A stretch of DNA of 58,094 nt from Planctomycetaceae bacterium (lineage in GTDB: Bacteria; Planctomycetota; Planctomycetia; Pirellulales; Thermoguttaceae). A program made the position numbers and the translations under genes. Location of the stretch: positions 1-58,094 of the forward strand of contig JAJFUI010000085.1 of assembly GCA_021372555.1 (NCBI GenBank), given 5' to 3'. The notes under the pieces are model-generated. The model was not told the origin of the DNA and made no database searches. It was given only the letters and a program-made list of their open reading frames with translations. Shown piece after piece: positions 51,006 through 55,995 of this stretch. Numbering within the stretch: the first letter of the stretch is position 1; each line of letters begins with the position of its first letter.

Positions 51006-51254
51006 TCACGCCAACACCCGCATGTTCTCGTACAAGAACTCGGGCGCGAGATCGGCGCCGTTTTCCCAAACGATCGTCCCCAGTTCAGAATCGACGCGAA
51101 ACTTCTGAAACTGCGAGCGGTCCTTGAGCGGAGCGAACATCTCGCCATCCAGTTCGCGGGCCAGATCAATTTCGCCTTCGGCCCCATCGTTGAATTTGAG
51201 CCAAATCACATAGTCGCGAATGTACTTCGCTTCTCTGACATGAAGGATCATCAT
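51006..51254 (-). CDS. DUF2442-family protein
   Basis: 82 residues, one base after the DUF4160 gene. The sequence VREAKYIRDYVIWLKFNDG, with EIDLARELDGEMFAPLKD and VWENGADLAPEFLYE, matches the DUF2442 pattern. The DUF4160-DUF2442 pairing recurs widely in mobile or accessory DNA and has been suggested to be a toxin-antitoxin-like module, which I recall but cannot confirm. It has no membrane segment. Confidence 0.85.
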   Translation of the reverse strand: MMILHVREAKYIRDYVIWLKFNDGAEGEIDLARELDGEMFAPLKDRSQFQKFRVDSELGTIVWENGADLAPEFLYENMRVLA

Positions 51255-51255
51255 T

Positions 51256-51513
51256 TCACTCCAACGGCTTGATGCGTTCCAGCGGGCGTCTGGCCGCAGC
51301 GAGCCTCCAGTTGTGTAACAAGCTCTCCCTGTTCGCTTCCCGCCATTCTTGAACTAGGGCGAGGGCTCGCCGAGACATGCTGCCCTCGACTCTGCCACTC
51401 TCAATCTCCACAGTCACCTCGGCGTCACCGTACTTTGCATGGAGATGCGGCGGCAAGTGGTCCCGCCAATACATCATGATCACAATCCCGAAAAAGCGGC
51501 TGAGTACCGGCAA
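51256..51513 (-). CDS. DUF4160-family protein
   Basis: 85 residues from a TTG start, supported by the usual MPVxSRFFGI opening of the family and by the HLPPHLHAKYG motif (histidine triplet) near residue 20. The partner DUF2442 gene follows after one base. DUF4160 has a small beta-rich fold of unknown activity. It lies 55 bases after the start region of the cyclase operon's last gene on the same strand. Confidence 0.85.
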   Translation of the reverse strand: MPVLSRFFGIVIMMYWRDHLPPHLHAKYGDAEVTVEIESGRVEGSMSRRALALVQEWREANRESLLHNWRLAAARRPLERIKPLE

Positions 51514-51568: not shown

Positions 51569-53473
51569 TCACTTGCTCGCCAGCGGAATCACGCCGTCCC
51601 AGCCCGGCGGCGGACGGCGGTTGTGCTGGGCAATGTAGACGATGAGGAAGTCCTTCACCTGGTCCTCGGCCGGAATGCGGTGCAAAAGCTCGAACGCCCG
51701 CGGCCAGGAGCCCGCGAGAAACGCATCAAGCGCCGCCTCGTAGGTCGCGAGGTGCTCGTCCGTTAGCTCAGGGCATTGCGATGCCGGCGGCAACAGTTCG
51801 CTGACTTCCAGCGGGGCGTCGAGACCGTATGGGCGAACGATAGCCAGCCGCCGAACGCGAGCCACCTCGCGAGAGACGGTTTGTCGTACGATTTTCGCCG
51901 TCGCCTCGTCCAGCAGGATCGGGGCTTGGATCAGCCGGGTCATCCCTTCCAGCCGCGACGCGAGGTTGACGACCGGCCCAAAGACCGTCACCTTGACCTG
52001 ATCGACGGTGCCAATTTTTCCCGCTACAGCCCGACCGGTGGCCACGCCGATGCCGGCCCCGAGACCGGTCGATGCCTCGAAACCGGCGCGGACGGCCAGC
52101 GCGGCTCGGCACGTCCGCTCGACGGCGTCGGTCTGCGGGAGCGGCCAGCCCCAGAAACCCATCGCCGCATCGCCCTGGAAATCGCCAACCACCCCGCCGT
52201 GCTCGCGGATGTGGTGCGTCATCACGCCCAGCGCAGTGCTGACTTGTTGCAGCAGACCGAGCAGGTCGCCGGCTTTCCGCTCCGACTCACGCGAGAAGCC
52301 GCGAAGGTCGCAGAACATGACCGAGACTTCCGTTTCGCGCGGCGAAAGCACGACCTCCGGGTCTTCATCAGCCAGCGTGTCGAGCACCACCGGGGAGAAG
52401 AACTGGCTCAGCGTGGCGTGGCGATGCTCCAAGAGCCGCATCTGCCGTAGCGAGGCGAGCATGGCCGAAACCAACTCGGTGAACTTCACGTCTTCACGGA
52501 GGTCGCTGGGATCGGTCGAAGGCGTCAGGCCGGAACGCTCGACGTTGAACCGGCCGGCCACATACAGCGCCCACCCCCGACAGGCTTTGCCGACGACAGG
52601 CGTGCAGAACGCCCAATCAAAGGCGTCGCTCACGGTGTAGGACTCGGGCGTGGGCACAGTGGTGCCGCGCCAAACATGCAAGACGCTTTGCCCCTGGCGA
52701 ATCGATTCAAGGATCAAGCTCTGGCTGGGGCGGAAATCGGTGGCAATCGCCAGTCGCTGGTCCCAGTGCAAAACGCGGGGAGAGGCGTTAGGGCGAAGGC
52801 CAGAGGGAAGCGTTGCCGGCCCCCGATGTTTGTTCTCCCACGCTGATTGCTGCGATTCTGTCTGAGCCGCGTCATCGGGCACTGAAGCACCGCGCCTTCG
52901 TTGCCCTTCCTTGTCGTTTCTACTCGCTTCGCTCTCCTCTTTTCCCTCAACGGCGGCCACGACTGCGGCGGCGTCGGCTCGGGGAATGCCGGCCAAAAGC
53001 ATGCTGACCAGCCGCGTAAAAAGCTCCTGGTCGCTGGCCGCTCCGGAGATCACGTCTGGCAGGCGGCTGAGAACCTCGATGCGATAGTCGGGGTTGCGGA
53101 ACTGAACTTGCTTGAGGTACTGAGCGCTAAACGACTGCTGTTGTACGGGCGCCGGAGCATCGGCCGCGACGTTCACCTGCTGATCGGCCAACGTGAAGGT
53201 GGTTTGCCCAATGACGAAATGCTCGCCCGCCACGAGTGAAAACTGGTCTGCCTGTGAACCGCGGAGGAACAGCGGATTTCGGGCGTCCGCCAGCCGAACG
53301 ACTTCGAGGCGTTTGCCCGTCCAGATCAGGCTGGCGTGCCGTCGCGATATTTGCGAGTCCCATGGAACGGCCCAGCCGCCTCCAAGCCGGCCGAGCACGA
53401 CGGTCTCGCCCTCCGGCAGCGTACGACGCCAGCGGTGTTGCGGGTCGGTTCCTTGGGCGATCAAGTCAGGCAT
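51569..53473 (-). CDS. FHA-GAF-class III nucleotidyl cyclase
   Basis: 634 residues. FHA domain (about 25-95, GRLGGGWAVPWDSQISRRHA, the S-x-R-H pThr site), a GAF-like region (about 140-345) and a class III cyclase catalytic domain (about 380-560). Both metal-binding Asp are present (FCDLRGFS, Asp about 389; GDFQGD, Asp about 435), as are the transition-state Asn and Arg (VVNLASRLE, 503 and 507). The two residues that specify adenine, normally Lys and Asp/Thr, are Asp (about 431) and Pro (about 500), so cAMP, cGMP or another product cannot be predicted. FHA reads phosphothreonine, and the Ser/Thr kinase gene lies two genes upstream, which suggests kinase-controlled cyclase activity. Confidence 0.93.
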   Translation of the reverse strand: MPDLIAQGTDPQHRWRRTLPEGETVVLGRLGGGWAVPWDSQISRRHASLIWTGKRLEVVRLADARNPLFLRGSQADQFSLVAGEHFVIGQTTFTLADQQVNVAADAPAPVQQQSFSAQYLKQVQFRNPDYRIEVLSRLPDVISGAASDQELFTRLVSMLLAGIPRADAAAVVAAVEGKEESEASRNDKEGQRRRGASVPDDAAQTESQQSAWENKHRGPATLPSGLRPNASPRVLHWDQRLAIATDFRPSQSLILESIRQGQSVLHVWRGTTVPTPESYTVSDAFDWAFCTPVVGKACRGWALYVAGRFNVERSGLTPSTDPSDLREDVKFTELVSAMLASLRQMRLLEHRHATLSQFFSPVVLDTLADEDPEVVLSPRETEVSVMFCDLRGFSRESERKAGDLLGLLQQVSTALGVMTHHIREHGGVVGDFQGDAAMGFWGWPLPQTDAVERTCRAALAVRAGFEASTGLGAGIGVATGRAVAGKIGTVDQVKVTVFGPVVNLASRLEGMTRLIQAPILLDEATAKIVRQTVSREVARVRRLAIVRPYGLDAPLEVSELLPPASQCPELTDEHLATYEAALDAFLAGSWPRAFELLHRIPAEDQVKDFLIVYIAQHNRRPPPGWDGVIPLASK

Positions 53474-53475
53474 GG

Positions 53476-53874
53476 CTAGGACAAGCGATTAGGGATTGGG
53501 GATAGCCTCGCTCGGCGGCTAAGAAGGCCATCGGCGATGATAAGCGGAGCCAACACAATAATGATTGGAGTAAGCGCATCTGCCACCCGGTTCGTCAATT
53601 GAACAGCCGCAGGCGGCACAAAGTCGACCCATTGCCTGTCTTCCAGTTGGAAGAAACAGACAGGCAGCGGCAACCCCACCCAACGAAACGTCGGCGTGAC
53701 ATGGACGTCGCAGCAGCCAAGGCAAAAGCCAGCATACGCTCCGCCGATAAGCAGCGTGACGAAAAGGGGGCACCATCGCCGGCCCTTCTTCCTGCGCCAA
53801 AGACCGCGAAAGGACTTAAAGATCAGCCAAGTCGCCAGTACGATGATGGGGAGGGAAATCAGAAGGCTCATCAT
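53476..53874 (-). CDS. Small membrane protein in the kinase-cyclase operon
   Basis: 132 residues. Three hydrophobic segments, at about 3-19, 36-53 and 96-116. Between the first two is a basic patch (SFRGLWRRKKGRR) and a Cys-rich turn (FCLGCCDVHV). It starts 18 bases after the kinase stop codon and ends 2 bases before the cyclase start, so it is part of a tight operon. I recognise no family. Confidence 0.62.
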   Translation of the reverse strand: MMSLLISLPIIVLATWLIFKSFRGLWRRKKGRRWCPLFVTLLIGGAYAGFCLGCCDVHVTPTFRWVGLPLPVCFFQLEDRQWVDFVPPAAVQLTNRVADALTPIIIVLAPLIIADGLLSRRARLSPIPNRLS

Positions 53875-53892
53875 GGCGTCAGCTTCGGATCT

Positions 53893-55995
53893 CTAGTTCC
53901 TCGCGCTACCGCTCATTCGTTTCGCCATTCCCCAAAGGCCCGCCATCACCAGCGCGATCAGCGCGAAGGCGATGACGCCCGAGCGAAGCAGGCCGAGCTT
54001 CAACATGTCCAATGTGCGGCCGATTGCCGTCTCGTAGTCGTTCTGCACGATGACGTCCCAGCCCGTATTGTGCCCCCGCAAGCGGACCGGCTCCATCCGG
54101 GCCAGCCAGCGGCCCTTGTACTCCGCCCCATCCGGATCGACCGCCAACGGGTCGTGGTAATCCTGCTGTTGCCGGACATCGTGGTTGTCGGGCAAGTCAT
54201 CGTCATGGACGCGATAGTCCTTGAAATGATCCGGCAACTTGCCGTCGCGCGTCAGCAGCTTGTCGAACAACGGATGCTCGATGACCACGCCTTTGTGCTC
54301 GCCGCCGCGGTTGTCGACCAGAACGGCGAATCGGGTCTTGTTGCCGGGGAAGTCGATGAACCGCCCGACCTGCGCCGTCATTCCCACGGCGCCAAGGAAC
54401 TTCTTCGGGTCGGACAGGTCGTATACCGGCGCGCTGACGCAAACCGTCCAAGTTTCCCGCGACGACGGGAAGACATCGGAGAGCGTCGTCGCGGTCAGGT
54501 GTTCGCCGCGTTTCGGCCGCCAGTTGTCTTCCATGTCCACCGGTCCGCCATGAAAGTAGCTTCGCCAGGCGAAGTCGCGGCCGATCGTTCGGTTGTCCGG
54601 CGTCCGGACCGTGGACACCCCCTGTGCGTCGCAGAAAAACCAACTCGTGATCTCTTCTTCGCCGAACGACCGTCGCATGAACTGCGTGACAATCGCCGTG
54701 AACTCCTTCTGAAGCGCCAGCCGGTCCGTGTTCTCGCGAAGTTGCTGCCGTAGCGGGGCCAGCTCCTCGCCGCTCAGCTTCCGGCTGCCGAGCCTCGCGA
54801 GCAACTCGCTAAGCTCCGGCCTCGCGAGCGTGTCGGCCAATTTCCGGCGGAACAGATCCGACGCGGCCACTTCCTCCACAAGCCGATATCGTCGCTCCAG
54901 TTCGTACTCCGCGTTGCGCGCGGCGAATTGAGCGGCAAAACCGTTGCTCTTGAGCGCCTCGTTCGTCAACGCGGCCTCTGATTTCACCACCGCGGAATGA
55001 AAACCCTGCCACGCGAACCACGAAACTACCGCCAGCAGTAGCGCAGGCCCTACGGCGCCAAGGATCATCGCCGGCCGCCGCGCCAGTCGGGCGGCGCGAT
55101 CGTCCAGCGCGTCCAGCACCGCTTGAACGTTCGGATAACGCTCATGGGGATCGGGCGCCAAGCAGCGATCGACAATTGCGGCCAACATCTTGTCCACGCC
55201 GCGACGCTTTCGATGCCCCACCGGCGGCGGCGACTGCTCGATCGTCTTGCGATAATCCTTCAATCGCTGGGCCAGTTCGGGCGTCCGCTCGAACATGTCT
55301 ACCGTCTTGCCGCTCCGATGAGGCGGCTCACCGGTCAACATGCAATAGAGCAATGCCCCAAGGGCGTACACGTCCCAGCGGGCGTCCGGCACGGCCTCAA
55401 GGTCGGCCTGCTCTGGCGCCATGTAGAACATCGTTCCCAACGCCGGCGCCTGCTCGGTCGAAAGACGCGACTGACCGAAATCGGCCAACCGCGGCTTGCC
55501 ATCTTGGTCAAGCAGCACGTTGGCTGGCTTCAGGTCGCAGTGCAGGACGCCCTTGCCGTGGGCGTGGACAAGGCCCGTAGCGACGTCCCGCAGCAGCGCG
55601 ACCGCCTCGTCAGCCCGCAGTGGTCCCTGCGCGATCCGCTCGGCCAACGAGCCCTTCTCCAGATACTCCATGATGTAGTACGGCGGGTCGGCATCCCAGC
55701 CGACACCGACCAACTGCACCACGTACCGATCGGCGAATAGAAAAGCGAGCTTCTCGACCTCGCGGCTCAGCAGCGACCAGTCCAGCCCGCCGCGATGGGC
55801 GTAGAACTTGATGGCCACCCGCCGACCGGTGTTTTGCTCTCGGGCGACCCAAACCTCACCGTAGGCGCCGATGCCCAGAAATCGCTCCGGTTCATAGCCG
55901 GGCACGTTGGTGGGCGGATAGCCTCGCTTCAGGCTCATCTCCGCCGCCCGCCGCCGCTCCTGATCGCCCTGCACCTCGGTCGCGTCGCTGCTCAT
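53893..55995 (-). CDS. Transmembrane Ser/Thr protein kinase with Cache-type sensor domain
   Basis: 700 residues. N-terminal PKN-type kinase: Gly loop GIGAYGEVW, Lys 63 (VAIKFY), HCDLKPAN (catalytic Asp about 154; the HRD Arg is Cys, a non-RD kinase), DFGQS and MAPEQ. A membrane helix (about 309-331) leads to a large extracytoplasmic region (about 335-670) resembling a double Cache small-molecule sensor (DWRSYF-like and WTVCVSAPVYDLSDPKKFLG), and a second helix (about 673-692) near the end. The kinase is cytosolic and the sensor external. It is the first gene of an operon with a small membrane protein and an FHA cyclase, a plausible phospho-Thr relay. Confidence 0.94.
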   Translation of the reverse strand: MSSDATEVQGDQERRRAAEMSLKRGYPPTNVPGYEPERFLGIGAYGEVWVAREQNTGRRVAIKFYAHRGGLDWSLLSREVEKLAFLFADRYVVQLVGVGWDADPPYYIMEYLEKGSLAERIAQGPLRADEAVALLRDVATGLVHAHGKGVLHCDLKPANVLLDQDGKPRLADFGQSRLSTEQAPALGTMFYMAPEQADLEAVPDARWDVYALGALLYCMLTGEPPHRSGKTVDMFERTPELAQRLKDYRKTIEQSPPPVGHRKRRGVDKMLAAIVDRCLAPDPHERYPNVQAVLDALDDRAARLARRPAMILGAVGPALLLAVVSWFAWQGFHSAVVKSEAALTNEALKSNGFAAQFAARNAEYELERRYRLVEEVAASDLFRRKLADTLARPELSELLARLGSRKLSGEELAPLRQQLRENTDRLALQKEFTAIVTQFMRRSFGEEEITSWFFCDAQGVSTVRTPDNRTIGRDFAWRSYFHGGPVDMEDNWRPKRGEHLTATTLSDVFPSSRETWTVCVSAPVYDLSDPKKFLGAVGMTAQVGRFIDFPGNKTRFAVLVDNRGGEHKGVVIEHPLFDKLLTRDGKLPDHFKDYRVHDDDLPDNHDVRQQQDYHDPLAVDPDGAEYKGRWLARMEPVRLRGHNTGWDVIVQNDYETAIGRTLDMLKLGLLRSGVIAFALIALVMAGLWGMAKRMSGSARN

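Follow-up and report, generated by a model that had tools for sequence, protein, structure and literature searches.

The window analyzed here is positions 1 to 58,094 of contig JAJFUI010000085.1 from a Planctomycetaceae bacterium (assembly GCA_021372555.1; 4.05 Mb in 361 contigs), whose closest named relatives in the public collection are Pirellulales. Three open reading frames (ORFs) are packed on its minus strand, which is the strand of all features of the locus given below. The first to be read, P0003 (53893..55995; 700 amino acids), encodes a receptor Ser/Thr kinase made up of a disordered N-terminal tail, the kinase domain, a transmembrane segment, a Cache-type sensor, a further transmembrane segment and a short tail. 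It is followed by P0002 (53476..53874; 132 amino acids), a small membrane protein in which three hydrophobic stretches can be recognized by eye, as the three membrane helices ascribed to it would have it. The last gene, P0001 (51569..53473; 634 amino acids), encodes an FHA domain, an alpha/beta middle domain, a long helix and a class III nucleotide cyclase domain. The ORF coordinates confirm intergenic gaps of 18 bases between P0003 and P0002 and 2 bases between P0002 and P0001, as described in an earlier reading of the same DNA (the original prediction), which was made from the sequence alone and proposed that the three genes form one signalling operon. A scan for promoters and terminators detected nothing that resembled a promoter, and terminator-like sites were no more numerous than expected by chance. 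Both outer genes have many full-length orthologues, and the observation at this locus is thus not a product of chance. Comparison across planctomycete genomes strongly supports the kinase and the FHA cyclase as co-inherited partners in two large groups of Planctomycetia.

The kinase domain of P0003 (residues 34-289; 55129..55896) matches the Pfam Pkinase profile at 143 bits and superposes on PknB/Stk1 structures with Z scores of 28-29 over 253-257 residues, at a root-mean-square deviation of 2.4-2.5. It carries the catalytic Lys, HxD, DFG and APE motifs of the Hanks-type Ser/Thr kinases, all invariant or nearly so, and an alignment of 74 orthologues with a mean column identity of 38% leaves Lys63, Asp154, Asn159 and Asp172 unchanged throughout. 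The catalytic loop (residues 152-154; 55534..55542) reads HCD and not HRD in all orthologues where it could be read, which excludes the RD subclass. Among the NCBIfam equivalogs, the PASTA/PknB family NF033483 is rejected because P0003 reaches 147.9 bits against a cut-off of 450, over the kinase part only, and has a dCache-like sensor; the other equivalogs fail on their scores. Two transmembrane segments, at about residues 310-332 (55000..55068; from hydrophobicity and a predicted helix) and about residues 670-690 (53926..53988; from sequence and predicted structure), enclose a Cache-type (dCache_1-like) sensor at about residues 342-652 (54040..54972) that is predicted to lie outside the membrane. 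The dCache_1 score of P0003 itself, 25.4 bits, is below the curated Pfam cut-off of 45, and 26 of 28 orthologues match the family at E<=0.01, the best at 3e-8. The sensor was compared by sequence profile, the fold search matches being filled by the kinase domain, and this profile finds the DctB-type sensor structures 3by9, 2zbb and 3e4o with E values of 1e-4 to 8e-4. The transmembrane non-RD kinase that had been read from the sequence is upheld by the Pkinase match and the HCD loop, and its external sensor is probably of Cache type, as most orthologues suggest.

The cyclase P0001 likewise bears out its first description. Its N-terminal domain (residues 1-98; 53180..53473) is assigned as an FHA domain from Pfam, a match to PDB entry 3gqs and conservation: the FHA profile matches 16 of 24 orthologues (best 3e-6), the FHA-fold family Yop-YscD_cpl matches 19 of the 24, and the GR, SxxH and N residues of the family are present as R29, S43, H46 and N66, which are predicted to bind phosphothreonine and are kept in 73-74 of 74 orthologues. 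The middle domain (residues 126-320; 52514..53098) has no Pfam match and is GAF-like by predicted secondary structure only; in fold searches with the entire protein, the cyclase domain accounted for the matches. A long helix in the predicted structure (residues 322-356; 52406..52510) joins it to the cyclase domain (residues 378-565; 51779..52342). The latter scores 37.7 bits against the Guanylate_cyc profile (cut-off 21.9), which matches all 24 members examined, and gives Z scores of about 20 to CyaC, CyaB and Cya2, with which it shares the class III fold and the metal and transition-state residues. The metal-binding D389 and D435 and the transition-state N503 and R507 occur in 74 of 74 orthologues, so that profile and catalytic residues together identify P0001 as a predicted class III nucleotide cyclase. 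The protein departs from CyaC, CyaB and Cya2 at the purine site, where the position of their Lys or Glu, D431, is Asp in 72 orthologues and Glu in 2, and the partner position, T496, is Thr in 71 and Gly in 3. Asp/Thr is the pair in 69 orthologues, Asp/Gly in 3 and Glu/Thr in 2. A canonical adenylyl cyclase is rejected by the acidic residue at the place of the adenine-specifying Lys, and a canonical guanylyl cyclase by the absence of a Glu plus Cys/Ser/Gly pair from those seen. Since the purine-site pair is neither of the two, the product is referred to here simply as a cyclic nucleotide.

The partnership of the two proteins rests on their distribution. Among 99 relatives, 51 have both orthologues, 38 have neither, 8 have the kinase only and 2 the cyclase only (Fisher p 4e-17 for co-occurrence, a statistic that ignores shared ancestry). 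In 7 of the 10 single-gene genomes, the gene stands at a contig end on its partner's side (kinase-only G001, G005, G007, G018 and G044; cyclase-only G016 and G030), and the remaining 3 exceptions belong to one genus with a diverged kinase (G017/G045/G060). A sample of the phylum comprising 246 genomes gives 16 with both genes, the same 16 for each, and none with one only; 12 of these come from a different family within the class (f21, non-Pirellulales), and 7 of the 12 have the genes adjacent. Another kinase of the same genome, taken as a control, occurs in 95 of the 99 relatives and does not track the cyclase, so absence of the pair does not reflect general incompleteness of the assemblies. 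Presence and absence both occur within families f1, f2 and f3, with the two genes nearly always together, and an RpoB tree calls for about 13-17 changes in the state of the pair.

Gene order agrees with this distribution. The kinase is followed by the cyclase on the same strand in 30 genomes, with 26 to 3818 bases between the matches, and wherever the genes are close, including the adjacent pairs of the second family, the kinase always comes first, with the cyclase on its strand. All 16 named genomes that lack a cyclase in the fetched flank of the kinase have a cyclase orthologue elsewhere. The original prediction had proposed looking for side-by-side conservation of its three genes in other planctomycetes. 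That expectation holds for the kinase and the FHA cyclase, which are co-inherited and often adjacent, and fails for the middle gene; the outcome that would have undone it, homologues never occurring together, is clearly contradicted by the 51 relatives with the pair. In the second family, two further genes recur at the pair: a short response regulator gene, a possible third partner, follows it in 8 loci (L147 14364-14966; also L145, L219, L220, L225, L227, L228 and L229), and a gyrA-like gene lies near it in 8 loci.

FHA domains read phosphothreonine, with contacts that reach about three residues on, and a candidate docking site of this kind is found in the N-terminal tail of the kinase, upstream of the kinase domain. 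The motif D4-A-T6-E-V-Q9 (55969..55986) is proposed as this site from its conservation and predicted disorder. Thr6 is kept in 74 of 74 kinases and Gln9 in 72, position 4 (-2 from Thr6) is Asp or Glu in 66, and positions 5, 7 and 8 (-1, +1 and +2) vary freely. Residues 1-10 have predicted local distance difference test (pLDDT) values below 50, which predicts a disordered tail. The T-x-x-Q pattern is also kept in 11 of 12 kinases of the second family, and it was not found at this position in the small sample of non-orthologous kinases looked at. Ser21 of the same tail (55933-55935) is another invariant residue (74/74). The kinases of the genus with the diverged copy (g18; loci L160, L161 and L162) are full-length relatives of P0003 with long unrelated N-terminal tails; they are without T-x-x-Q, and no cyclase partner was found for them. 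Near-absolute constraint applies alike to T-x-x-Q, to the binding residues of the FHA domain and to the catalytic residues of the cyclase. In the cyclase orthologues aligned, the FHA domain begins at residues 1-3, leaving no N-terminal tail for self-binding; with the FHA domain at the very start of the cyclase and an invariant Thr tail on the kinase, the receptor tail is the simplest candidate ligand.

These features suggest a two-protein relay across the membrane, in which a signal would bind the extracytoplasmic Cache-type sensor and switch the cytoplasmic non-RD kinase, a ligand step that the family of the sensor suggests. The kinase would then phosphorylate Thr6 of its own disordered tail, within D-x-T-x-x-Q, and the FHA domain of the cyclase would dock on the phosphorylated residue and bring the soluble enzyme to the receptor, as the invariance of the residues, the co-occurrence of the genes and their joint absence would lead one to expect. 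The architecture of P0001 suggests that the middle domain and the long helix may pass the docking event on to the class III cyclase domain and change its activity, which would alter the level of a cyclic nucleotide, with activation presumed over inhibition. We infer the direction of the signal, the autophosphorylation of Thr6, the docking of the FHA domain, the activation and the product, and consider this relay slightly on the probable side. The narrower claim, that a separate class III cyclase, gated by its FHA domain and unusual in its purine site, docks on the phosphorylated D-x-pT-x-x-Q tail of the receptor and is switched by it, is put forward tentatively, its chances standing a little short of even. 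A chain from kinase through FHA domain to cyclase thus stays the best reading of the conserved pair and of its intact FHA and cyclase residues, and the part of the original chain that assigned a role to the middle membrane gene is dropped.

For that gene, the tight packing in this genome would favor a three-gene signalling unit with P0002 as a working part. However, no P0002 homologue was found in the orthologous loci fetched, and the 60 relatives searched whole yielded only remote, unlinked ones (29-33% in G018 and G015, weaker in others). In the close relative G004, kinase and cyclase are separated by 1335 bases that hold different ORFs (L165 4914-5992), one of them a PemK/MazF-like toxin gene. 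Because another insert occupies the same place there, the space between the two genes appears to be open to insertions, of which P0002 would be an example; it is judged to be a bystander with no conserved part in the system. The three-gene operon is accordingly rejected as a conserved unit, and a working role for P0002 is very improbable. A broader doubt is whether kinase and cyclase co-occur only as parts of the gene complement ancestral to these clades and serve separate pathways. Both genes are limited to the same clades, they were not found close together in 21 of the 51 genomes that have both (some by contig breaks), and a test that takes the tree into account agrees with a pair but is weak, since the RpoB tree offers only 3-4 well-supported independent contrasts, none of them opposite and too few for significance. 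These points weigh against a functional pair, but genomes with split genes still keep both, linked genes keep one order in two families of the class, the control kinase behaves otherwise, and in the families with mixed presence the two genes are nearly always present or absent together. We therefore let shared ancestry qualify the Fisher value but do not take it to explain the pattern, and separate pathways seem rather improbable.

Several further points count against the proposed relay. The FHA score of P0001 itself is 16.9 bits, below the Pfam cut-off of 20.7; Thr6 could have another reader and the FHA domain another kinase substrate; and loss of T-x-x-Q is seen in one lineage only. Thr280 of the cyclase is an alternative candidate phosphorylation site, conserved in 70 of 74 orthologues within a loop of low model confidence. 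The kinase and the cyclase may be true partners of another kind: the target of the kinase would be the cyclase (at Thr280, for instance) or some third protein, the FHA domain would recognize the site phosphorylated there, and Thr6-x-x-Gln9 would be left for regulation of the kinase or for another reader. The FHA domains of DgcB, GarA and OdhI bind the protein that carries them (PMC6733907), and the response regulator of the second family indicates that further partners may exist. Against this, Thr280 abuts a strand of the folded domain and may be structural, and the Thr6 tail is the only site that is disordered, has an invariant Thr and is absent from kinases without a cyclase, so that this alternative, although the strongest, is considered unlikely. 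That one of the two enzymes is catalytically dead and serves as a pseudo-enzyme scaffold could be argued from HCD in place of HRD and from Asp or Glu at the Lys position of the cyclase, but is hard to credit when the catalytic residues of the kinase are invariant and the metal and transition-state residues of the cyclase are complete in all 74 orthologues. On sequence evidence, then, the pair is well supported and the relay from receptor tail to FHA cyclase is unproven.

Directly after the cyclase gene, the minus strand carries a small two-gene cassette of DUF4160 and DUF2442 genes (51006-51513). Pairs of this type are regarded as toxin-antitoxin-like.

Each half of the pair has precedents. 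GarA and OdhI are FHA-only regulators of metabolic enzymes. The PknB/PknG-GarA/OdhI systems of mycobacteria and relatives combine, as here, a Ser/Thr kinase with an FHA protein, and the kinase fold is PknB-like; those systems have no cyclase, whereas P0003 has a Cache-type sensor in place of PASTA and an HCD catalytic loop. The Bdellovibrio protein DgcB, an FHA-GGDEF diguanylate cyclase gated by a phosphothreonine tail (PMC6733907), also places an N-terminal FHA domain before a nucleotide cyclase, and its FHA domain controls the cyclase by binding a phosphothreonine of a disordered N-terminal tail. DgcB differs in making cyclic di-GMP with a GGDEF domain and in reading its own tail, phosphorylated by an unidentified kinase, whereas P0001 is a class III enzyme lacking such a tail, and it is the partner receptor kinase that carries the conserved Thr tail. 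A DgcB-like cyclase gated by its own tail is rejected on the position at which the FHA domain starts. The PpkA-Fha system of type VI secretion is likewise a genetic pair of Ser/Thr kinase and FHA protein, but controls a secretion machine and has no cyclase (PMC3953482). Myxococcus xanthus Pkn2 (PMC1262709) and the TOMM kinase/cyclase (TIGR03903) couple a Ser/Thr kinase to a class III cyclase within one chain without FHA docking, in contrast to the separate genes found here. Membership in TIGR03903 is rejected, as the match reaches 56 bits against a cut-off of 706, covers the kinase part only and involves separate genes. No description of this pair was found among the open-licence papers searched, and with PknB-GarA, PpkA-Fha, DgcB and Pkn2 as precedents for its halves, the pair is a variant of Ser/Thr kinase-FHA signalling.

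Planctomycetes encode many Ser/Thr kinases, of which, to our knowledge, very few have assigned partners. For this one, comparative genomics points to a kinase, its likely effector enzyme, one threonine and the residues that would read it, in a pair that is also present in the cultured relatives Rhodopirellula, Rubripirellula, Stieleria and Roseimaritima. If the proposed relay is correct, it would connect a ligand outside the cell with a cyclic nucleotide by way of an FHA domain docking on phosphothreonine, a route known elsewhere only in pieces, and would give two groups of Planctomycetia a transmembrane Ser/Thr-kinase path to a cyclic nucleotide.

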